Below are positions 12,385 through 23,885 of a DNA stretch of 64,000 nucleotides, one piece after another (positions within the stretch are counted from its first letter, which is position 1; each line of letters begins with the position of its first letter). The DNA lies in contig CADBDE010000006.1 in assembly GCA_902793375.1 (NCBI GenBank), forward strand, positions 1 through 64,000. The letters are read 5' to 3'. The notes under the pieces were generated by a model. That model was not told the origin of the DNA and did not search any database. It was given only the letters and a program-made list of their open reading frames with translations. This stretch comes from an uncultured Erysipelotrichaceae bacterium (lineage in GTDB: Bacteria > Bacillota_I > Bacilli_A > RF39 > UBA660). The position numbers were made by a program, and so were the translations under genes.

Positions 12385-12416
12385 AAAACGACTTAGTAAT
12401 TAAACTAGGTCGTTTT
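12385..12416 (-). terminator. Terminator of tetR, possibly bidirectional
   Basis: AAAACGACCTAG and CTAAGTCGTTTT form a near-perfect stem (one wobble) around TTTAATTA. The A/T flanks allow use in either direction; the tetR stop is in the loop. Confidence 0.7.
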
Positions 12417-13011
12417 CAAATAGATTCTTAATATTTTCAATTACAAGATAAGTCATGACATCATAATTCATATCATCATGTTTATGATAAATAATTTCGT
12501 GACATAGATTATCAATTAACCCCATCATTATATGAACTTTTTCATATAAATCTTCATCTTTAAAATTATTATCAATCAATATATTCTTTAATGTATTAGT
12601 CATTTCTAACTCTCTTTTATAATAGTATTCTGCAACTCTTTTATCAGAATGCACCATTGACATTATTTCCTCATGAGCAACATTAGATACTTTATGATTA
12701 CTTATATAATGTTTAATCATTTGTTTAAGTAATTTATCAAAATCAGATTTTTCAAATTTAACATTTTTTGTTTTTAACATAGGAAAGAAGATATCATCAC
12801 CATATTTTTCTAGACCTTCGATTAATATATCATATTTATCCTTAAAATATTGATAAACGATTCCTGTTGATACCCCAGCTGCTTTAGCTATCTCTGCAGT
12901 ATTAGTGTTGTAATATCCATTTTCACATATAAGATTAAATCCAGCTTCAATGATTTTTTCTTTTTTTTCAATAGCTCTTTGTTGTTTAGGTTCTCTTATA
13001 TTATCTATCAC
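12400..13011 (-). CDS. TetR/AcrR-family transcriptional repressor
   Basis: The 203-residue protein has a TetR DNA-binding domain at about 15-62 (IIEAGFNLICENGYYNTNTA, EIAKAAGVSTGIVYQYFKDK) and a helical ligand domain. It starts with GTG behind GAGGTGATTT. It is divergent from an ABC exporter operon, with two palindromes in between, the standard layout of a drug- or lipid-responsive local repressor. The inducer is unknown; I infer it to be the exporter's substrate. Confidence 0.85.
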   Translation of the reverse strand: MIDNIREPKQQRAIEKKEKIIEAGFNLICENGYYNTNTAEIAKAAGVSTGIVYQYFKDKYDILIEGLEKYGDDIFFPMLKTKNVKFEKSDFDKLLKQMIKHYISNHKVSNVAHEEIMSMVHSDKRVAEYYYKRELEMTNTLKNILIDNNFKDEDLYEKVHIMMGLIDNLCHEIIYHKHDDMNYDVMTYLVIENIKNLFENDLV

Positions 13012-13050
13012 ACGAAATCACCTCGTAAGAAGAGTATATCACATTTTAGT

Positions 13051-13076
13051 AAAATATGAAACAATATTCATATTTT
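13051..13076. promoter_or_regulatory. Operator palindrome 1
   Basis: AAAATATGAA and TTCATATTTT are perfect ten-base arms around ACAATA. It ends two bases before the exporter -35 and overlaps the likely -35 of tetR, so binding would repress both directions. Confidence 0.75.
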
Positions 13077-13078
13077 CG

Positions 13079-13107
13079 TTGACTATATTTTTTAAAAAGA
13101 ATATAAT
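13079..13107 (+). promoter_or_regulatory. Exporter operon promoter
   Basis: TTGACT, 17 bases, TATAAT: near-consensus, placed exactly between the two palindromes. Confidence 0.8.
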
Positions 13108-13108
13108 T

Positions 13109-13130
13109 AATATGAAATATGTTTCATATT
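13109..13130. promoter_or_regulatory. Operator palindrome 2
   Basis: AATATGAAA and TTTCATATT are perfect nine-base arms around TATG, immediately after the -10 and over the expected transcription start. It shares the ATATGAA core with operator 1. Confidence 0.75.
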
Positions 13131-13146
13131 TAGAAAGAGGTATATG

Positions 13147-13848
13147 ATGGGTAGTTTTATAGAACTAAAGAATGTTAAAAAAACTTATATAATTGGTGAA
13201 CAAAAATTTAATGCTTTAGATGGAATAGACTTAAGTATTAATCAAGGAGAATTTGTAGTTGTGCTTGGACCATCAGGTGCTGGTAAATCAACTTTATTAA
13301 ATCTTCTTGGAGGAATGGATAAGGCAACATCAGGATCCATTATTATTGGTGAAGATGACATAGCACAGTTTAATGATAAAGAACTTACTAGATATAGAGC
13401 TCATGATGTTGGATTTATTTTTCAATTTTATAATATAATGCCTACTTTAACAGTAGATGAGAATATTAATTTAATAAAAGATGTAACTAATACATCTAAA
13501 GATTCGGCGAGTGTATTAAAAAGTGTTGGATTATCAAAACATGCAGATAAATTTCCACAAGAACTATCAGGAGGAGAGCAACAAAGAGTTTCTATTGCAA
13601 GAGCAATAATGAAAAATCCGAAAGTATTATTATGTGATGAACCAACTGGAGCACTTGATTCTAAGACAGGTGTAGAAATATTAAAACTTCTTAGAAAACA
13701 AAGTGATGAAGATACAACAGTAATCATTGTTACACATAACTCTTTAATTGCTGATATAGCTGATAGAGTTATTAAAATAAAAAATGGTAAAGTTGTATCA
13801 AATGAACTTAATAATCATCCAAAAAATATAGATGAGGTTAAGTGGTAA
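13147..13848 (+). CDS. ABC transporter ATP-binding protein (MacB/LolD type)
   Basis: This 233-residue nucleotide-binding subunit has Walker A GPSGAGKST at about 41-49, Q-loop FIFQFYNIMPTLT, signature LSGGEQQRVSIARAI, Walker B LLCDEPTGALD and a switch histidine in IIVTHN. The length and sequence match the MacB/LolD/FtsE-like group that pairs with FtsX-fold permeases. ATG 13147 gives better spacing to AAAGAGG than ATG 13144. The permease begins two bases after its stop. The operon is probably controlled by the divergent TetR. Confidence 0.9.
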   Translation: MGSFIELKNVKKTYIIGEQKFNALDGIDLSINQGEFVVVLGPSGAGKSTLLNLLGGMDKATSGSIIIGEDDIAQFNDKELTRYRAHDVGFIFQFYNIMPTLTVDENINLIKDVTNTSKDSASVLKSVGLSKHADKFPQELSGGEQQRVSIARAIMKNPKVLLCDEPTGALDSKTGVEILKLLRKQSDEDTTVIIVTHNSLIADIADRVIKIKNGKVVSNELNNHPKNIDEVKW

Positions 13849-13850
13849 TT

Positions 13851-16130
13851 ATGTTAAAAAGAAAAATGTTTAGAGATATTCGTAAGAACTTATCTCAATT
13901 TATAACAATCTTTTTAATGATTATGATTGGAATAATGGCTTATTCTGGAATCAAAGCATATATGGATGGTATGCAAAAAACTGCTGATAAGTTTTATTCT
14001 GAAAACAATCTACAAGATCTAAATGTTATGGGATTATTTAATCACGATGATTTAGATTCTATTAAAAAGATAAAAAACATTAAAGATGCAGAACTTAAAC
14101 TATCTATAACTGCAACAACTGATGATGAGAAAATATTATTATTAAATTGTATTGAATCAAACAATATTTCTAAATTCTATGTTTACGATGGAGAAGAATT
14201 TGATAATAATAGTGGTGTATGGTTAGATTACTTCTATTCTAAAGAAAATGGTATAAAAGTTGGCGATACAATTCTAGTTAAATATGAAAGTATGGAACTT
14301 CATGAAAAAGTAAGAGGACTTATTCAAGTTCCTGATCATTTATATGATACTAGAGATGAATCAGAATTATATCCAGATAGAAAAGAATTTGGATTTGCTT
14401 ATATGTCTATTAATGAAATACCTAAAGAAATGGTTGTCTTTAATAGTATTATGGTAGATGTTAATAATAAAGAAAATGTAAACAGTGTTAAAAATGATAT
14501 AGAAGATAATATTGAAAATGCAAAAGCAATTATTAAGATAGAGGATACATCATCATATGTTGCATATCAAGGAGAAATAGATGAAGGTAAAACCTACGTA
14601 GGGGTTTTCTCTGGAATATTTTTGTTTATTGCTATGCTTTCAGTTATTACTACAATGACAAGAGTAATTAAAAATCAAAGAGTTCAAATAGGAACATTAA
14701 AAGCTTTAGGCTTTAAAAATAATAAAATATTATTACATTATATTGGTTATGGATTCTGGATAAGTATATTTGCTTCTATTGTTGGATTATTATTAGGATA
14801 TTTCTTAATTGGCAATATATTTATTAATCTAGAAATGAAATTTTTTGAAATACCTAATGGTTATCCATCAATGAATAATAGTAGTTATTTAATTTCTCTA
14901 TTAGTTATTATAGTAGTAGCAATTATTATATATATTAATGGAAGAAGTATATTAAAAGAGAATCCTGCTGAAACACTTAGAACTAAGATACCAAGTGTAA
15001 AAGGAAAAACTCTTGGAATAACAAAAAAAGGGTTATTTAAAAAATTAAATTTTTCTAGTAAATGGAATGTTAGAGATATATTAAGAAATAAAATGAGAAC
15101 ATTTATGGGGCTTGCTGGAGTAGTAGGATGTTGTACTTTAATAGTGTGTGCTCTAGGTATGTTAGATTCCATGAATTTCTTTGTTAAATTACAATTTGAA
15201 GATTTATATAATTTTGATTATAAATTAAATCTTAAGGAAAACTTATCAAATAATGAACTACAAGACTTATATAATAAATATGGAAATAATACATCACAAA
15301 GTATAGGAATAGAAATAAAGGATAACGATGGTAAAAGAGAATCAAATAATATCTTAGTAACAGATGCAGGTAATTATTTAAGATTTGTAGATAATAAAAA
15401 CAATATAAAAGAAAAACCATCAGATGATGGAGTATATGTTACCTATAAATTAGCATCTAATAAAGGATATAAACTTGGTGATGAAATTACATGGCATATT
15501 TATGGAGATAACAAATATTACACATCTAAGATAATAGGATTTAATAAAGATCCACAAAATCAAAACGTATCTATGACAAAAAAATATTTAGAAAGTCTTG
15601 GAATAGAATATAAACCAGATTCTTTATATACAAATGTAGATTTAAAAAATATTAAAGAAATTAAAAATGTTGAAACTATTCAAAATATAGATAACTTAAA
15701 AGATGGTATGACTGGAATGCTTTCAATGATGAAAACTATGTTAGTATTAATAATTGGAATAGCTATACTTCTTGGAGGAATAATTATATATAATTTAGGA
15801 ATATTATCATATACAGAAAAAGAATATCAATTTGCTACATTAAAAGTATTAGGATTCAAAGATAAACAAATAGAAAAAATATTTATTAAACAAAATAACT
15901 GGATTGCAATAGTATCAATTATATTTGGTTTACCAATGGGCTTTTATTTAACAGATTGGTTATTTAAAACAGCTATAGAAGAACATTATGATTTTGGTGC
16001 TTTTATTGAAATAAAAACTTATATAATTGCAGCAATAGGAACATTTATAATTTCATATTTAGTATCAAAATTTTTAGCAAGAAAGATAAGGAAAATAGAT
16101 ATGGTAACAAGTTTAAAAGGTAATGAGTAG
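13851..16130 (+). CDS. FtsX-family ABC permease
   Basis: The 759-residue permease has one N-terminal membrane segment (about 15-35), an extracellular domain, three segments at 245-370 (the first FtsX core), another near 415-440, a second extracellular domain, and three segments at 620-755 (the second core). This duplicated layout is typical of long Firmicute permeases such as the YhgE/BceB-unrelated DUF214 group. It partners the preceding ATPase to export or extract peptides or lipids. A GTG at 13842 lies before the ATPase stop; ATG 13851 is preferred. Confidence 0.85.
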   Translation: MLKRKMFRDIRKNLSQFITIFLMIMIGIMAYSGIKAYMDGMQKTADKFYSENNLQDLNVMGLFNHDDLDSIKKIKNIKDAELKLSITATTDDEKILLLNCIESNNISKFYVYDGEEFDNNSGVWLDYFYSKENGIKVGDTILVKYESMELHEKVRGLIQVPDHLYDTRDESELYPDRKEFGFAYMSINEIPKEMVVFNSIMVDVNNKENVNSVKNDIEDNIENAKAIIKIEDTSSYVAYQGEIDEGKTYVGVFSGIFLFIAMLSVITTMTRVIKNQRVQIGTLKALGFKNNKILLHYIGYGFWISIFASIVGLLLGYFLIGNIFINLEMKFFEIPNGYPSMNNSSYLISLLVIIVVAIIIYINGRSILKENPAETLRTKIPSVKGKTLGITKKGLFKKLNFSSKWNVRDILRNKMRTFMGLAGVVGCCTLIVCALGMLDSMNFFVKLQFEDLYNFDYKLNLKENLSNNELQDLYNKYGNNTSQSIGIEIKDNDGKRESNNILVTDAGNYLRFVDNKNNIKEKPSDDGVYVTYKLASNKGYKLGDEITWHIYGDNKYYTSKIIGFNKDPQNQNVSMTKKYLESLGIEYKPDSLYTNVDLKNIKEIKNVETIQNIDNLKDGMTGMLSMMKTMLVLIIGIAILLGGIIIYNLGILSYTEKEYQFATLKVLGFKDKQIEKIFIKQNNWIAIVSIIFGLPMGFYLTDWLFKTAIEEHYDFGAFIEIKTYIIAAIGTFIISYLVSKFLARKIRKIDMVTSLKGNE

Positions 16131-16360: not shown

Positions 16361-16547
16361 ATGAAATTAATTAAATTAAAAGATTATGATGAAAAAGCAT
16401 TCTTATATTATCCAATTAAATCCAAAGCAATATAAACAACAATTAAAGTATAAAATGTTAATTGATTTATTAGCTAATAAGTCTATATTTATTGCTTTTT
16501 TTAAACTATTAGTATTGACAAATTTAAAAAAAATGATAGAGTATTGA
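16361..16547 (+). pseudogene. Frameshifted remnant of a small gene
   Basis: A good ribosome binding site (AGGTGATTAAA) and a TGTTATAAT promoter precede ATG 16361 (MKLIKLKDYDEKAF), which soon stops. A shifted frame continues with IIQLNPKQYKQQLKYKMLID to TGA 16545-16547. Together they would encode about 60 residues of an unknown protein. The remainder of 16131-16510 has no other supportable gene. Confidence 0.4.
16515..16542 (+). promoter_or_regulatory. Promoter of the LysRS-like/radical SAM operon
   Basis: Perfect TTGACA, 16 bases, then TGATAGAGT, an extended -10 with a 4/6 hexamer. It is placed 27 bases before the leader peptide start. Confidence 0.6.
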
Positions 16548-16568: not shown

Positions 16569-16628
16569 ATGTTATTAGCTTGGACTTTTAATAATTTTTT
16601 TAATAAGAATATAAATAGCGAACAATAA
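16569..16628 (+). CDS. Candidate leader peptide, 19 residues
   Basis: GAGGTG and ATG 16569 open a frame encoding MLLAWTFNNFFNKNINSEQ. The stop TAA (16626-16628) lies inside the left arm of the terminator hairpin that follows. A ribosome reaching the end of this frame would cover that arm and block hairpin formation, so the peptide could couple translation to readthrough into the operon. The middle is Asn/Phe-rich (five Asn, three Phe), with one Lys. Translation is not shown; the call rests on the ribosome binding site and the geometry. Confidence 0.5.
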   Translation: MLLAWTFNNFFNKNINSEQ

Positions 16629-16677: not shown

Positions 16678-17838
16678 ATGATTTTTAGAATATTAGCAGT
16701 TAGAAGTCATAAAAAAATTGTTTTTTGTGATAGCCTAAATGAAAAATATGAAAAAATACAACTTGCAATTCCAAAAGATTTATTTACCTCTTTTCACTTA
16801 AAAGTAGGAAGTGTAATATCAGCAAAATATGAAATAACTAAGAATAAATATGATAATGATTTATACTATATAAATGAAATAAAAAATGTAAATAACCATG
16901 ATAAAAATTTATCATATAAATCAATTAACTCAATTCCTAATTCAATGTTACAATCAAGCTTTATAAATGCTGTTAATGGAGGAATTAATTTAAAATACTG
17001 GGAAATGAAACAAAAACTTTTAGAAGAAATAAGAAAGTTTTTAATACAAAAATGTTATATAGAAGTGAATACCTCTCTTCTTATGAATAATAGAGGAACT
17101 AGTATTGTAAATCCTATGAAGGTTGATAGTAAATATTCTGGAAATAAATATTTAAAAATAACCCATGAAATTGAATTGAAAAAGCAATGTTATTTAACCC
17201 TAAAATCATTATTTGAAATAGGTTATGTAGCAAGAGATGTATATTCAACAACAAAGTCTGCAAATGAATATCTTACAATGGAATTAGTAGCACCAATTGA
17301 AGATGATTTAAGTGCAGATGAATTATATTTATATGTATATGAAACAGCAATAAAATTAGCAAGAGAATATGGAATTACTTATAATGAATTATTTAAAACA
17401 ATAGAAAAGAAAGATGTATTAGAATTATACTTTAAAGATCATAAGGAATTTGTAAAAGAAGAATTTCAATATTTTTATAAAAGATTATTGGAAGAAGAGA
17501 AAAATATATTATTTTTAAATGCGCCAGTTGATTCACCTCTAGCTAAAAATTCTGATTACGGAATACCATTAGAAACAAAATGGGCTATAGGAAAAAGAGG
17601 AATAGGTCATGGTTACATAGATCAAGATGATATTACGATAATTAGTGAATTATTTAAAGAACAACAAAAACAATTAAAAGAAAAAGAAATAGATGCAGAA
17701 TTAGATAAAGATTATTTAACTACACTGCTTTATGCAGGAATAAGTACTAAAAGTTTAAATATAGGAATTGATAGATTTATGTATAAATTCTTAGGATTAG
17801 AACATGAAGATAAAGCTATTAAAATATTAGGAATATAG
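16678..17838 (+). CDS. Class II lysyl-tRNA synthetase-like protein
   Basis: The 386-residue protein has an N-terminal OB-fold-like part (FRILAVRSHKKIVFCDSLNE, residues 1-75) and a class II aminoacyl-tRNA synthetase catalytic fold related to LysRS. Motif 1-like CYIEVNTSLLMNNRGTSIVN is near 126, motif 2-like FEIGYVARDVYSTTKSANEY near 179, and motif 3-like NIGIDRFMYKFLGL near 360. It is about 110 residues shorter than LysS, and motif 2 departs from the usual RNEG sequence. LysRS paralogues such as EpmA attach lysine-like amino acids to non-tRNA acceptors; a similar activating role fits the context but is inference. It opens the operon behind AAGGAG. Confidence 0.7.
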   Translation: MIFRILAVRSHKKIVFCDSLNEKYEKIQLAIPKDLFTSFHLKVGSVISAKYEITKNKYDNDLYYINEIKNVNNHDKNLSYKSINSIPNSMLQSSFINAVNGGINLKYWEMKQKLLEEIRKFLIQKCYIEVNTSLLMNNRGTSIVNPMKVDSKYSGNKYLKITHEIELKKQCYLTLKSLFEIGYVARDVYSTTKSANEYLTMELVAPIEDDLSADELYLYVYETAIKLAREYGITYNELFKTIEKKDVLELYFKDHKEFVKEEFQYFYKRLLEEEKNILFLNAPVDSPLAKNSDYGIPLETKWAIGKRGIGHGYIDQDDITIISELFKEQQKQLKEKEIDAELDKDYLTTLLYAGISTKSLNIGIDRFMYKFLGLEHEDKAIKILGI

Positions 17839-17846
17839 GAGTTAAT

Positions 17847-19100
17847 ATGGAAAAAGTGTTATTTTTATACCCTCCTACTGTATATGCAAATCACAGTATG
17901 TTTAAGCATTTTACATATTTTGGAGAGACAATTGATGTAATAAGTAGATATTATTCTAATATATCGGTATTAGATTGTGCAGTTGAGCAAATAGAACAAA
18001 AAATAATATTTAATGAATTTAAACAATGTAATTTACTAATAATGGAAATAGAACCATATAATATAGAGGTATCTCTTTCACTTGCAAATTTATATAAATC
18101 ATTTAATACAAAAGGAAAAATAATAATATATGGAACAGCAGTAACTATTATGCCAAATTATTTTAAAAAGGAACTATTATTTGATTATATAATTTCTAAT
18201 GGAAATTTTGCAATTGGAATATTAGGAATAATGTCTTCGTTATTAGGAATTAAATATCCATATAAAGAAAAAGGATTATATTTTGAAAAGAAGAACAATG
18301 AATACATACTTAAAGGAAAAAATATTCAATTACCAGTAAAAGATTGGGGAATTGGTAATAATAAACTGTTACCACTAGAAAAATATAAATTCTATAATAA
18401 TGGAATGTTTGAATTAACAGTTCAAACAGGATGTCCGTTTAATTGTTCATTTTGTTCTGAAAAAGTATTATTTAATAAAGAATGTGGAACAAAATATCGA
18501 GAAGTAGAAGACATAATAAAAATAATAAATAGTATAAAACATGATTTTAATGAAATTTATTTTTCTGCAACTACAATGACTGCGAATAGAAAATGGACAA
18601 TAGATCTATGTAATAGATTAATTGAAGAAAAAAATAAATTACCATGGAGAACTGTAACTAGAATAGATTGTGTTGATGAAGAATTACTATTGTTGATGAA
18701 AAAAGCAGGTCTAAAAAAATTATGTTTTGGAGTTGAAACATTTGATGATGATTTATTAAAGAAGATTAATAAGCATCAAACAGTAAATAAAGTATTAGAA
18801 GTAATAGAATTATGTAATAAATTAGATATAAAAGCAAAAGCATTATTAATGTTAGGAATACCTGGACAAACAGCTGATAATGTTAAATCAACAGTTAAAA
18901 TATTAAAAAAACTAAATGTAGAATATCGCTTTAAAGAGTATTCTCCAATTAGAGAAGCTCATATTTTAGATTCCGAGGGAAAAAATATTTCTGATATGAT
19001 TCCATTATTTAGTAGATATGAATATAGATGTGATAGTATAAAAGGATTATCTAAAGAAGAATATATGGAATTACTTTTTCCAACAGGATATGTGAGGTGA
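17847..19100 (+). CDS. Radical SAM enzyme with B12-binding-like N-terminus
   Basis: This 417-residue protein has the [4Fe-4S] motif C196-x3-C200-x2-C203 (GCPFNCSFC) and later radical SAM core elements (FSATTMTANRKW, LKKLCFGVETFDDDLLKKIN, ALLMLGIPGQT). The first 180 residues have the alternating alpha/beta pattern of a cobalamin-binding domain as in COG1032 proteins, but the DxHxxG cobalamin ligand motif is not visible, so B12 use is doubtful. It starts eight bases after the LysRS-like gene and its TGA overlaps the next gene's leader. Substrate unknown. Confidence 0.75.
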   Translation: MEKVLFLYPPTVYANHSMFKHFTYFGETIDVISRYYSNISVLDCAVEQIEQKIIFNEFKQCNLLIMEIEPYNIEVSLSLANLYKSFNTKGKIIIYGTAVTIMPNYFKKELLFDYIISNGNFAIGILGIMSSLLGIKYPYKEKGLYFEKKNNEYILKGKNIQLPVKDWGIGNNKLLPLEKYKFYNNGMFELTVQTGCPFNCSFCSEKVLFNKECGTKYREVEDIIKIINSIKHDFNEIYFSATTMTANRKWTIDLCNRLIEEKNKLPWRTVTRIDCVDEELLLLMKKAGLKKLCFGVETFDDDLLKKINKHQTVNKVLEVIELCNKLDIKAKALLMLGIPGQTADNVKSTVKILKKLNVEYRFKEYSPIREAHILDSEGKNISDMIPLFSRYEYRCDSIKGLSKEEYMELLFPTGYVR

Positions 19101-19105
19101 TACTC

Positions 19106-20128
19106 ATGATAGAACATTTGAAAAGTGGTATATCAATTTCTACACATCTAGGATGTGGACTAAAATGTTCTTATTGTGTTCTAGCAACTTTAGAAAGATT
19201 TAATGAAGGTGCAATATTACAAATTAAGCCAAAAAAATTAGTTGATGAATTATTAAATAATAAATATTATGAAAAGAATAAAACCCCAATTATGATTAAT
19301 AATAGAACAGATCCGTTTATTAAAGAAGTTATACCATATACATTAGAAATTCTAGATTTATTAATTGAAAAAGATATAAAATCACCAATATTAATTATTT
19401 CTAAATTTGCTCCTCCAGTTGAATTAAAAAAGTATTTTGATTATTTAGATATATGTTTCTTCTATTCATATTCTGGAATAGATAGTGATTTTAATTATAA
19501 AAAAGTATTTGACGATTTAAAAGAGATAAATAAAATAGTTCCAAAAAAATCTAGATATCACTATTTTAGACCAATTATCCCTGGAGTAAATGATAATTTA
19601 GAATTCATGAAGAAAATAATAAATATATTTGTAGAGAATAATTTTGAATCATCTGTAATAGCAGGTTTTAGAGTAACAAATTTAAATAAACATTTAATAA
19701 AAGAAAAAAGTATTGATTTAGAAAAGATAGACTATAGTCATAAATTAGTAAATAACAATATTTATGAAATTAATAAGTGGTTTTTTAAAAGTAATTATTA
19801 TATTTTTAGACATACAAGTTGTGCTCTAGCTTATCATACAAAATCATTTAATAAACTAAATTATTATAAAAAAGAAGGACATTGTTTTTCTTCTTGCCCA
19901 AATAATTCAATATGTTCTAAAAAGAAAATAAACATAAATGAAATCTTTAAAGAATTAAAGAAAAGGTTTAAAGATAAGTATGATTTAGACTATGATAATG
20001 ATTCTATAATAATAAAATCAGAATGTTCACAAGAATTAGTAGCATACATTAAAAATGCATTTGGTTGTAAAGTAAATGCAACAAGTGTTAAGTTATCAAA
20101 ATCAGAAGAGGTGATTTTGGGTGAATAA
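19106..20128 (+). CDS. Second radical SAM enzyme with extra C-terminal cysteines
   Basis: The 340-residue protein carries C17-x3-C21-x2-C24 (GCGLKCSYC) close to its start and a compact barrel (TPIMINNRTDPFIKEV, LIISKFAPP, RPIIPGVND). After the barrel a cysteine set (TSCALAY, GHCFSSCPNNSIC) could hold an auxiliary iron-sulphur cluster, as in several radical SAM subfamilies. The barrel somewhat resembles spore photoproduct lyase-like COG1533 proteins. ATG 19106 follows GAGGTGATACTC; the GTG at 19097 is within the ribosome binding site. It overlaps the next gene by eight bases. Confidence 0.75.
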   Translation: MIEHLKSGISISTHLGCGLKCSYCVLATLERFNEGAILQIKPKKLVDELLNNKYYEKNKTPIMINNRTDPFIKEVIPYTLEILDLLIEKDIKSPILIISKFAPPVELKKYFDYLDICFFYSYSGIDSDFNYKKVFDDLKEINKIVPKKSRYHYFRPIIPGVNDNLEFMKKIINIFVENNFESSVIAGFRVTNLNKHLIKEKSIDLEKIDYSHKLVNNNIYEINKWFFKSNYYIFRHTSCALAYHTKSFNKLNYYKKEGHCFSSCPNNSICSKKKININEIFKELKKRFKDKYDLDYDNDSIIIKSECSQELVAYIKNAFGCKVNATSVKLSKSEEVILGE

Positions 20129-20678
20129 AAATAAAATAATAATTGGATGTGATTTGCATAATACATTATTATTAAGTAATGAAGCATGGATAAAAGCATA
20201 TTTGCATTATAATTGTAATATAGATAAAGATCAATTAGCTAAATCAATTTATAATAAAGAGTCTAGAAAAGAAATATCTAAGAAATATAATATAGATTAT
20301 GAAATGGTTAAAAACAAATATCATGAAAACTGCAAACCAAATATTAAATTAATTATGTTTATTAAAATGTTAAAAGAATTAGATATACCAGTTTTATTAA
20401 TATCATCTTCAAATAAAGAAAAAGTAGATAAAGACTTATTAAAATTAAAAAATTATATTGTATTTGATAAAGTATATACAAAAGAGAATTTTAAAAAAGA
20501 TAACATGAAAGATTGGAATAGAATAATTAAAGAGAATAAAGCAGATTTAATGATTTATATTGGAAATGATTATGATGAAGATATAATAAAAAATGATAAA
20601 GTAGTAAGTATTCTATCAGGACATTTTTTTAAAGAATTAAAAGATGTAGGAATATTAAAAGAAAGGGGAAAAAAGTAA
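20121..20678 (+). CDS. HAD-superfamily protein with altered DxDxT motif
   Basis: The 185-residue protein has a HAD (haloacid dehalogenase) layout: motif I as D11-L-H13-N-T15, motif II in VLLISSSNKEKV, and motif III/IV as IYIGNDYDEDIIKN. The second aspartate of motif I, which serves as acid/base in phosphatases, is replaced by histidine, so the activity may differ from simple phosphate hydrolysis. The helical cap lies at about 20-80. GTG start behind GAGGTGATTTTGG; its stop shares a base with the next ATG. Confidence 0.7.
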   Translation: MNKNKIIIGCDLHNTLLLSNEAWIKAYLHYNCNIDKDQLAKSIYNKESRKEISKKYNIDYEMVKNKYHENCKPNIKLIMFIKMLKELDIPVLLISSSNKEKVDKDLLKLKNYIVFDKVYTKENFKKDNMKDWNRIIKENKADLMIYIGNDYDEDIIKNDKVVSILSGHFFKELKDVGILKERGKK

Positions 20679-21592
20679 TGAATTTATTATTAAATGAAGA
20701 AGATAAAGATGGTTATATAATGAATCAAATAGAAAGTATTAATAAGATGATTGAAAACTTAGATAAAAGATGGATACATTACAAAACTATAAAATCTTTA
20801 TTAGAAGATACATTAAATGAATTAAAAAAAATAAAGTTTAATAATAAAACTATTCAGAGAACGCATGAAAGAAAAATAGAAAAATATATTAATTGGGTTG
20901 AAGTATATAGACTAGCAAATTACCATTTTTCAAGATACTTGAATTCAAAAACATCATATAGTGAAGGGTTGTTTTCAACATTACTTGCATTAAATAATAT
21001 GTATATTCATGATAAAAGTATAAAAAATATTGGCATTATTGGATGTGGACCTGGAAGAAGCGTACTTGATTTTTCACTAGCATATCCGAATGCTAAAATA
21101 CATGGATTAGATTATTCATCAGTAGCACTTACATTAGGGAAGAAAATAGTATCTTCTTGTGATAAAGAAATTGAAATAGTAAGAAGAGAAGATAATATCA
21201 TAATAGATAAGATAAATGGATTTAAAAGAAATAATTGTTTATGGAGTATGTTTGATCTAACAAAATCAAATATAAAAGAAGAATTTGATATTGCAGTATG
21301 TTCTAATGTAATTAATCTAATGCCTAATCATAAAGAAGCAATAAATAAAATATATAATATGATTACTCCTAATGGTTATATAATTTATGCAGATTTAACT
21401 GGATGGAGAATAGATAGAAAAGAAGAACAAGAACTATTAAAAGATAAGGACTCCATAAAAAAATGTTTTGAAGATACCGGTTTTGTAACTATTGAATGTT
21501 TTGATGGTGGTCCTTATGTAGAAAAAGAAAATGATTCTAATTTTATTTTTTATAAACAAACATACTATATAGGAAGGAAGTGTATTAAATGA
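20678..21592 (+). CDS. SAM-dependent methyltransferase (class I)
   Basis: This 304-residue protein has an N-terminal helical region of about 110 residues and a Rossmann-type SAM-binding domain: motif I IGIIGCGPGRSVLDFS (about 119-134), acidic strand AKIHGLDYSS, and post-motif FDIAVCSNVINLMPNHKEAI, NGYIIYADLTGW. Its acceptor is unknown. It is joined to its neighbours by one- and four-base overlaps (TAATG at 20676-20680 and ATGA at 21589-21592), so the operon is translated as a coupled block. Confidence 0.8.
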   Translation: MNLLLNEEDKDGYIMNQIESINKMIENLDKRWIHYKTIKSLLEDTLNELKKIKFNNKTIQRTHERKIEKYINWVEVYRLANYHFSRYLNSKTSYSEGLFSTLLALNNMYIHDKSIKNIGIIGCGPGRSVLDFSLAYPNAKIHGLDYSSVALTLGKKIVSSCDKEIEIVRREDNIIIDKINGFKRNNCLWSMFDLTKSNIKEEFDIAVCSNVINLMPNHKEAINKIYNMITPNGYIIYADLTGWRIDRKEEQELLKDKDSIKKCFEDTGFVTIECFDGGPYVEKENDSNFIFYKQTYYIGRKCIK

Positions 21593-22251
21593 AAAAAGTT
21601 ATATTATTAAGTGGACCAGATAAAACTAAATATTTTAGTAAAAGATTAACACAAATAATAAAGAGTAAATGTAATAATCCACATAATATGGTTGTTATTC
21701 CAGCAGATGCTAATAATATAAAAAAGAATGATAAACAATTTAATGGTAACGAAGAAGTAGTAGGAGTATATAAGAATTTTAAAAAATTATATCCTGAATT
21801 AGAAAATATAATATTATTGGATAGTAGAATTGATTCTAAAAAAGGTAAAGATTACTTAAAAAATGCTGATATTATTTATTTATTAGGAGGAGATCCTTTT
21901 ATTCAGCTAAAATACTTGCGTGATAATGGCTATGATGATATAATATGCAACACAAATGCACTATTGATGGGTGTTAGTGCAGGATCTATGAATTTGTCAA
22001 AAGACTCTTATTATTCAAAAGATGAAGATTATAAAGAAAGTATTATATATAAAGGATTAGGAATTACATCTATAACAATAGATCCACATTTCTATAAAAG
22101 TAATAAAGAACAAGTTGAAGAAATAAAAAAATATTCAAAAGATAGAAGAATAATCGGATTACCTAATCGTTCAATAATAGTAATTGATAAAGATATAAAA
22201 TATATAGGAAGAGTATATATATATGAAAATGGTAATTTAATTAAAATATAG
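21589..22251 (+). CDS. S51-type peptidase / glutamine-amidotransferase-like protein
   Basis: The 220-residue product resembles the peptidase E/cyanophycinase (S51) family: IYLLGGDPFIQLKYL, then GVSAGSMNLS with the presumed nucleophile S130, and DPHFYKSNKEQ with the catalytic-region histidine. Family members cleave dipeptides or isopeptide-like bonds next to acidic residues. In this operon it may trim a product or detoxify it; that is inference. It overlaps the methyltransferase by four bases and has a good GGAAGGAAG ribosome binding site. Confidence 0.65.
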   Translation: MKKVILLSGPDKTKYFSKRLTQIIKSKCNNPHNMVVIPADANNIKKNDKQFNGNEEVVGVYKNFKKLYPELENIILLDSRIDSKKGKDYLKNADIIYLLGGDPFIQLKYLRDNGYDDIICNTNALLMGVSAGSMNLSKDSYYSKDEDYKESIIYKGLGITSITIDPHFYKSNKEQVEEIKKYSKDRRIIGLPNRSIIVIDKDIKYIGRVYIYENGNLIKI

Positions 22252-22274
22252 TAAAAAAATAGGGGGATAGTAAA

Positions 22275-23876
22275 ATGAATTGGGCACTAGAAGAAGCTAA
22301 AAAATTAATTGAAAAATACCCAGATAAAGAAGAATTTACTATTGCATCTGGAGTAAGTCCATCAGGATTTATTCATATTGGAAATTTTAGAGAAATAGTA
22401 ACAACTTTTTTTATAGGGAAAGAATTAGAAAATTTAGGAAAAAAAGTAAGATATATATTATCATTTGATGACTTTGATAGATTAAGAAAAGTTCCAAAAG
22501 GTATACCAAGTGATTACAGTAAATATATAGGTATGCCATATTCAAGTATTCCAAGTCCATTTAGCAAAGATAAGTCTTATGCAAAAGAAATGGAAGATCG
22601 TTTTCTTGATGAATTAAATAGAATGGGAATTAATCCAGAAATTATTTCACAAACAGAGCAATATAAGAGTGGAAGATATAATGAAAAAATACAACTTGCT
22701 TTAGATAATAGAAAAAAAATATTTGATATAGAATCTAAATTTAAAACACAAACATTTACTGAAGAGGATAGAGATAATTATTATCCAATAAGTTTGTATT
22801 GCAATAAATGTAAAAAAGATTCAACAAAGATTTTATCATGTGATTCTAAAGGTAATATAGAATACAAATGTGAATGTGGTAATCATGAAATAGAAAATTT
22901 AAATGATTGTTCTAATATTAAACTTCAATGGAAAGTTGATTGGCCAATGAGATGGCAACAAGAAGGAGTAATATTTGAACCAGGTGGAAGAGATCATTCT
23001 GCTGAAAATGGTAGTTATGCAGTTTCAAAAGTAATAGCTAAAGAAATATTTGGATATGATGCACCATCTTATGTAGCATATGATTTTATAGGAATAAAAG
23101 GAGCTAATGGAAAAATGGCTTCATCATCTGGAAATGTATTAACATTAACAGATTTGTTAAACGTATATGATAAAAATATTATTTTATGGTTTTATGCAAA
23201 AAATAATCCAAGTCATCAATTTAATATAGCCTTAGATGAAGATGTTTTAAGATATTATAGTGAATTTGATAGAATGGTAAAAGCTTATTTTTTAAATAAA
23301 CTAGATAAGAAAAATGCAAGTATTATATCTTTAACAGATGTAACAAAAAGTTATTTAAATAATCCTGATTTTGGAACAATATCTAATTTTTTACCAATGG
23401 TAAATTACAATATAGAAGCACTAGTATCATTATTAAAAAAAGAAAATATTGATTGTAATTCATTACAATTTAAATCAAGATTATTAAAAGCAATTAATTG
23501 GTTAGAAAAATATAATAATAATAAACTTCATATATTAGAAGAATTCAATAATGAATATTATGATTCATTATTAAATGAAGAAAAAATATGGGTTGAGAAG
23601 ACAAATGAAATATTACATAAAGAATATAAAAATACAAAAGAATTGCAAGAAGAATTATATGCTATAGTAAAAACAGAAAATGATAATCCAAAAGAATTAA
23701 AGGAAAAACAAAAACATTATTTTCAAATAATATACAATATGGTTATTGGAGAAGATAAAGGACCTAAATTAGGATTATTACTATTTGCATTAGATAACGA
23801 TAAAAGGGAACAATTATTAAATTCTAAATATAAAAATAATGTTACTTACAAAAAAAATAAGACTAGAGAAATCTAG
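22275..23876 (+). CDS. lysK: Lysyl-tRNA synthetase, class I
   Basis: The 533-residue enzyme has class I LysRS signatures: SGVSPSGFIHIGNFREI with HIGN at 34-37, LSFDDFDRLRKVPKGIPSDY, a Cys-rich insert (CNKCKKDS... YKCECGN, about 176-205), WKVDWPMRWQQEGV, PGGRDHSAENGSY, and the KMSKS loop as KMASSSGN near 280. It ligates lysine to tRNA-Lys. Bacteria usually have a class II LysRS, and a class I enzyme in the same operon as a class II-like protein is unusual. It ends the operon; its TAG is in the terminator. Confidence 0.92.
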   Translation: MNWALEEAKKLIEKYPDKEEFTIASGVSPSGFIHIGNFREIVTTFFIGKELENLGKKVRYILSFDDFDRLRKVPKGIPSDYSKYIGMPYSSIPSPFSKDKSYAKEMEDRFLDELNRMGINPEIISQTEQYKSGRYNEKIQLALDNRKKIFDIESKFKTQTFTEEDRDNYYPISLYCNKCKKDSTKILSCDSKGNIEYKCECGNHEIENLNDCSNIKLQWKVDWPMRWQQEGVIFEPGGRDHSAENGSYAVSKVIAKEIFGYDAPSYVAYDFIGIKGANGKMASSSGNVLTLTDLLNVYDKNIILWFYAKNNPSHQFNIALDEDVLRYYSEFDRMVKAYFLNKLDKKNASIISLTDVTKSYLNNPDFGTISNFLPMVNYNIEALVSLLKKENIDCNSLQFKSRLLKAINWLEKYNNNKLHILEEFNNEYYDSLLNEEKIWVEKTNEILHKEYKNTKELQEELYAIVKTENDNPKELKEKQKHYFQIIYNMVIGEDKGPKLGLLLFALDNDKREQLLNSKYKNNVTYKKNKTREI

Positions 23877-23885
23877 TTTTTTTTA
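23862..23885 (+). terminator. Terminator of the LysRS-like/radical SAM operon
   Basis: ACTAGA-GAAA-TCTAGT, then eight T; perfect stem with a GNRA loop. Confidence 0.9.

Follow-up and report, generated by a model that had tools for sequence, protein, structure and literature searches.

Sequence analysis of a seven-gene operon with a degenerate lysyl-tRNA synthetase, an S51 peptidase and a class I lysyl-tRNA synthetase: a possible cluster for a lysyl-conjugate inhibitor in an uncultured gut bacterium

In ascamycin biosynthesis, the alanine of Ala-tRNA is passed on to a nucleoside sulfamate by AcmF, a truncated alanyl-tRNA synthetase (AlaRS)-like protein that has lost most of its ATP-binding residues (PMC12945691). 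The MccG-type peptidases of the S51 family cleave processed microcin C (PMC9239234). The class I lysyl-tRNA synthetase (LysRS1) is reportedly less sensitive than the class II enzyme (LysRS2) to inhibitors and lysine analogues, and resistance was proposed in 2006 as the reason why some bacteria keep both classes (PMC1475646). Here, we describe an operon that brings together a degenerate relative of LysRS2, an S51 peptidase and a LysRS1. It occupies positions 16678-23876 of the window, the whole 64,000-nucleotide stretch that was analysed (positions 1 to 64,000 of contig CADBDE010000006.1, assembly GCA_902793375.1, from an uncultured Erysipelotrichaceae bacterium). All seven open reading frames (ORFs) of the operon were found to be present as called, on the + strand and overlapping or closely spaced, in agreement with the initial annotation of one coupled operon. 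The genes are as follows.

16678..17838, + strand: P1, a degenerate LysRS2 (OB-fold and catalytic domains, 386 amino acids), the proposed lysyl transferase; recognized by family profiles, fold relatives and residue alignment
17847..19100, + strand: P2, a radical S-adenosylmethionine (SAM) enzyme of 417 amino acids; radical SAM profile (E = 4.6e-23), nearest solved structure AprD4-type (6fd2)
19106..20128, + strand: P3, a divergent radical SAM enzyme of about 340 amino acids; CxxxCxxC motif, further C-terminal cysteines and Pfam matches of its homologues
20121..20678, + strand: P4, a HAD-family hydrolase of 185 amino acids; profile match, motif I reading DxHxT in place of DxDxT
20678..21592, + strand: P5, a SAM-dependent methyltransferase of 304 amino acids; profile match, with a C-terminal remnant at locus L026 of another genome
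21589..22251, + strand: P6, an S51 peptidase, the proposed immunity hydrolase; Ser130 and His167 present, Arg at the acid position
22275..23876, + strand: P7, a LysRS1 of 533 amino acids, the proposed inhibitor-insensitive LysRS; TIGR00467, signatures and tree

The consecutive gaps and overlaps from P1 to P7 are +8, about -4, -8, -1, -4 and +23 nt. The second value becomes +5 nt if P3 starts at the ATG at 19106, which is the more likely start because it has the better Shine-Dalgarno sequence. The seven genes are co-directional and translationally coupled and form a single operon.

We propose that this operon encodes the synthesis of a lysyl-conjugate active against the standard LysRS2 and, at the same time, the protection of its own host from this product, a reading that we judge to fall just short of probable. 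P2, P3, P4 and P5, in a presumed order, would build an acceptor, possibly a nucleoside or nucleotide; this kind of acceptor is proposed because two radical SAM enzymes, a phosphatase and a methyltransferase are present. P7 would charge tRNA-Lys, and P1 would join lysine to the acceptor through an amide bond, with Lys-tRNA as the most likely donor. The product would mimic lysyl-adenylate and block LysRS2, while P7, being a class I enzyme, would go on charging, and stray product would be hydrolysed by P6 at the lysyl-amide bond. We infer each of these chemical steps, the product, the acceptor and its nucleotide nature, and likewise the need for tRNA, the toxicity and the direction in which self-resistance works. 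A lysine-derived small molecule, suggested in the initial annotation, is still the best reading, and the overall interpretation given there is partly supported. If the proposal is true, uncultured gut bacteria carry a gene cluster for a LysRS inhibitor, which would be a concrete case of LysRS1 as built-in resistance in the sense of the 2006 idea (PMC1475646). We would class the operon as a variant within aminoacyl-conjugate antibiotic biosynthesis, short of proven membership in a known family. The open-access papers searched, which leave out most subscription journals, contained no earlier description of clusters of this kind.

P1 is a shortened relative of class II LysRS. It matches PF00152 (E = 1.9e-9), its best solved relatives are LysRS, and it has both the OB-fold domain and the class II catalytic core. 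Four members of the P1 family (window, L008/L009, L062, which is the same as L067, and L068) were aligned with seven housekeeping-type LysRS2, using the LysU numbering and residue roles that we take from general knowledge of LysU. All four members have lost the presumed ATP/Mg residues E264, N271, E414, E421 and N424, P1 itself carrying V, A, K, G and H at these positions, and the changes Y280V, N424H and E428D are common to the whole family. Meanwhile, E240 and E278, presumably the acids that hold the lysine amine, and the Arg, Arg, Phe and Gln that we assume to be the anchor residues of the OB domain are kept in all four. Among the seven LysRS2, E264 and E421 are invariant, N271 and E414 differ in two sequences each, and N424 differs in one. 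The initial annotation had suggested that a class II LysRS-like ligase could activate lysine or a relative; ATP-dependent activation by P1 is unlikely because the five residues are replaced in every member.

The loss of residues in P1 follows the pattern of AcmF, and by analogy P1 is predicted to hand over the aminoacyl group of a charged tRNA to a small-molecule acceptor. The ascamycin (acm) cluster contains a product-tolerant charging synthetase (AcmD) beside the degenerate AcmF, as well as a separate product hydrolase (AcmE). The operon likewise pairs a degenerate synthetase (P1) with a tRNA-charging enzyme of matching amino acid specificity (P7), and it has a candidate hydrolase of its own. 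The two systems differ in that LysRS here takes the place of AlaRS, and in that the synthetase with the proposed tolerance belongs to class I while the target enzyme belongs to class II. Furthermore, the alpha/beta hydrolase is replaced here by an S51 peptidase, the sulfamate pathway by radical SAM enzymes, HAD and methyltransferase, and the host Streptomyces by gut Bacilli.

EpmA/PoxA/GenX is another relative of LysRS2 with a non-translational role. P1 might accordingly lysylate or otherwise act on a protein or tRNA, as EpmA does with EF-P, the remaining genes modifying the attached lysine. Weak matches to the EpmA models (33 bits for P1 and 50 bits for its relative at L062) are in line with this idea. 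However, EpmA has retained ATP-dependent activation and lacks an OB domain, whereas P1 shows the reverse, and its score lies below the curated EpmA cut-off of 264-287 bits and is exceeded by those of the LysRS2 models (66 and 62 bits). As an EpmA-like role would also leave the S51 peptidase and LysRS1 unexplained, we regard it as improbable.

P7 is an intact, genuine class I LysRS as judged from its sequence: it scores 410 bits against TIGR00467 (cut-off 147.6) and has the HIGN and KMASS (KMxSS) signatures. The two LysRS types of the initial annotation therefore hold for P7 but not for P1, as the LysRS2 proper of this genome is encoded on another contig (L002/L071, 654 bits). LysRS1 was found in 6 of the 385 genomes of the order, and in the tree P7 and the LysRS1 of L026 make up a clade of their own, separate from the remaining four (support 100/100). 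Bacillus cereus LysRS1 (lysK) is similarly an extra class I enzyme in a Firmicute having LysRS2, with a proposed tolerance to lysine analogues. It differs in being T-box-controlled, whereas P7 is the last of seven operon genes, and neither a T-box nor any other Rfam RNA family was found in the window.

P6 matches Peptidase_S51 (PF03575) above the gathering score (E = 9.8e-18) and has the SAG-Ser nucleophile and the His of the S51 family. As with MccG in the microcin C-like clusters, it is proposed by analogy to confer self-immunity by breaking the amide of an aminoacyl-nucleotide. The operon differs from those clusters in having no ThiF-type MccB nucleotidyltransferase and no confirmed MccA, in the triad of P6, which lacks the Asp, and in the inferred target, LysRS here and AspRS (aspartyl-tRNA synthetase) there. 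The genome of G236 offers a second view of this part of the operon. At its locus L026, a remnant of P5 (72% over 39 amino acids) is followed by an S51 gene (64%) and a LysRS1 gene (74%) side by side, and a transposase-like gene adjoins. P1 was not found in the genome of G236, which also has a normal LysRS2 of its own. The simplest reading, with which these features are consistent, is that a copy of the operon has decayed here except for its protective end. The initial annotation had suggested that the peptidase could have a trimming role; a resistance hydrolase explains it better, because the gene persists beside LysRS1 at a locus where a stump is all that remains of the methyltransferase, and MccG provides a precedent (PMC9239234).

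Only two of the 288 genomes of the order, the present one included, carry P1; it was found in none of the 391 other genomes of a draw from the phylum, and at three loci of the genome collection. The operon bearing it is accessory, as none of the 11 congeners has it (1 of 12 genomes in the genus). Class II synthetases that are catalytically dead act as subunits in other systems, for example HisZ of HisG. P1 could similarly regulate a metabolic enzyme as one of its subunits, in an operon of ordinary lysine or cofactor metabolism. Both this patchy distribution and the partnership with an S51 peptidase and a spare LysRS1 speak against such a role, which seems to us very unlikely.

In all four loci of the P1 family (window, L062/L067, L068 and L009), an S51 gene is adjacent or in the same operon. 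P1 and P6 share an operon in the window, and the P1 relative and the S51 gene of L009 are neighbours on opposite strands. The two remaining loci have the following layout.

L068:10001-13619, + strand, and L062:7898-11511, - strand: degenerate LysRS, S51 peptidase, a kinase like the aminoglycoside phosphotransferases (APH) and a Bud32/ABC1-like kinase, with no radical SAM gene

In both, the S51 gene comes next after the degenerate LysRS with a 4-base overlap and is followed by the APH-like kinase and the second kinase-like protein. The scattering of homologous genes that would have spoken against the initial annotation was seen neither for the P1-P6 pairing nor for P5-P6-P7. The combination of a degenerate synthetase with an S51 peptidase can also serve as a simple rule in the search for related clusters. 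The S51 gene alone was rejected as a marker, as 20 more distant S51 loci had no relatives of the synthetase/radical SAM panel within about 1.5 kb. A pair search for P6 in genome contigs found none, the search patterns being poor.

These loci also bear on a different explanation, by which P1, P6 and P7 are a resistance module against lysyl-adenylate-like antibiotics of other organisms. P1 would be a decoy, the S51 peptidase would cleave the drug, LysRS1 would bypass it and the kinases of the related loci would modify it, with the radical SAM enzymes and methyltransferase hitchhiking or modifying the drug as well. The P1-S51-kinase-kinase operons have no obvious scaffold-making enzyme, one of their kinases is akin to the aminoglycoside phosphotransferases, and L026 keeps the S51-LysRS1 pair without an intact P1-P5. 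On the other hand, two coupled radical SAM enzymes, a HAD protein and a methyltransferase far exceed the needs of such a module, S51 and LysRS1 are retained in L026 in the absence of P1, and the AlaRS-remnant clusters described below join the remnant directly to a radical SAM/phosphatase protein. We consider a resistance module unlikely and prefer the proposed biosynthesis of a lysyl-conjugate.

Several observations weigh against that proposal. The full seven-gene set was seen once, in its own genome, and is not a conserved seven-gene system because it was found nowhere else. In L062 and L068, kinases stand in the place of radical SAM enzymes, and the AcmF-like arrangement is missing, as there is no LysRS1 alongside; the partner chemistry of P1 therefore varies and need not be tied to radical SAM enzymes. 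The P1 relative L008 also lacks the arginines of motifs 2 and 3. P6 has Arg where the triad of MccG-type enzymes has Asp, which leaves its catalytic activity uncertain; the L026 orthologue keeps this Asp, and the D196A change in MccG lowered resistance but did not abolish it (PMC9239234). The radical SAM protein of the parallel cluster L021 stays under the curated cut-off for viperin (70 against 180 bits). Finally, no product, transporter or precursor was identified within the operon.

Two further kinds of cluster combine a synthetase relative, a radical SAM protein and an S51 peptidase.

L021:7947-13659, - strand, in the genome of the window (G000:C2): HAD-type protein, viperin-like radical SAM enzyme, altered asparaginyl-tRNA synthetase (AsnRS), AsnRS and S51 peptidase
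L064:9055-12946, - strand, and L065:4039-7911, + strand, in two other genera: AlaRS remnant, radical SAM/histidine-phosphatase fusion and S51 peptidase

Prokaryotic viperin was the best curated model for the radical SAM protein of L021. The altered AsnRS has the metal/side-chain loop GDIIGACEKE in place of GELIGASQRE, the second AsnRS has the normal loop, and a further AsnRS of this genome is on contig C21. The AlaRS remnant of L064 and L065 (about 330 residues) lacks the Glu-Arg of motif 3; its kinship to AlaRS is indicated by hidden Markov model E-values of 5.6e-8 and 4.9e-7, where background matches reached 0.058 at best, and its AlphaFold model (predicted local distance difference test, pLDDT, 47) was too weak for use. 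A general class of clusters in gut Bacilli can be imagined, in which a degenerate LysRS, AsnRS or AlaRS takes its amino acid from the charged tRNA and joins it to a nucleotide modified by a radical SAM enzyme, and the S51 peptidase, sometimes with a spare synthetase, provides self-protection; we find this possible but would sooner doubt it than accept it.

The expression signals of the operon are listed below.

16515..16542, + strand: candidate promoter TTGACA-16-TAGAGT, a consensus match not above the shuffle background
16569..16628, + strand: possible leader or precursor peptide of 19 codons, MLLAWTFNNFFNKNINSEQ, with a GAGGTGG Shine-Dalgarno sequence
23862..23884, + strand: intrinsic terminator ACTAGA-GAAA-TCTAGT-T8, a hairpin (23862-23877) followed by T8 and overlapping the P7 stop codon

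The shared terminator of the initial annotation was confirmed; the automatic scan demanded three G-C pairs and therefore missed this hairpin. The shared promoter is plausible, but promoter-like matches are no more frequent across the region (79) than in shuffled sequence (83). The MLLAWTFNNFFNKNINSEQ ORF sits between the candidate promoter and P1 and is followed by a hairpin-forming U-rich stretch, which might base-pair with the P1 ribosome-binding site. Such a short ORF with a good Shine-Dalgarno sequence right after the promoter, and then a U-rich hairpin, is a layout seen in many operons for ribosomally synthesized and post-translationally modified peptides. The 19-residue peptide might thus be a precursor to which P1 adds lysine from Lys-tRNA in a PEARL-like manner, the radical SAM enzymes and methyltransferase modifying it and the S51 peptidase releasing the product; there are PEARL and 3-thiaglutamate precedents (PMC12945691; PMC9016710). 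However, no comparable short ORF was found upstream of L021, L062 or L068, no transporter or leader peptidase accompanies the genes, S51 persists in L026 beside LysRS1 and not beside biosynthetic genes, and the hairpin region is no stabler than shuffles (z-score -1.07). A peptide scaffold is, in our estimate, quite unlikely. No homologous upstream region for comparing the ORF was found.

The window contains no tRNA gene that we could find. Among the PADLOC profiles of anti-phage defence, only partial matches of the radical SAM and methyltransferase superfamily type were obtained, which do not assign the operon to a defence system. P1 had no match in plasmids, P3 had none in phages, and no relative of the P1 family, P2 or the P3 family was found in viral contigs. 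Directly upstream of the operon (12400-16130), a TetR regulator is divergent from an ABC transporter with an ATPase (13144-13848) and an FtsX/MacB-like permease (13842-16130), which could be the exporter of the operon.

The 417-amino-acid HAD frame of L021 (12406-13659, - strand) has a strong internal Shine-Dalgarno sequence (AAAGGAGGGG) and an ATG near its middle and may encode two products. A HIT domain suspected in it by eye was not found by Pfam.

P3 itself matches no family above the cut-off, its homologues match Pfam Radical_SAM, its AlphaFold model (pLDDT 57) was too weak for use, and the fold search gave only low-confidence QueE-like matches. Two P3 homologues, in other genomes of the same family, adjoin NUDIX genes, and one is fused to a weak MazG-like segment, which hints at nucleotide chemistry. 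These P3-like genes lie at L013:5528-6631 and L014:9507-10640, both on the - strand, glycosyltransferases also being near in L013, and such surroundings suggest nucleotide or nucleotide-sugar substrates for the P3-like enzymes.

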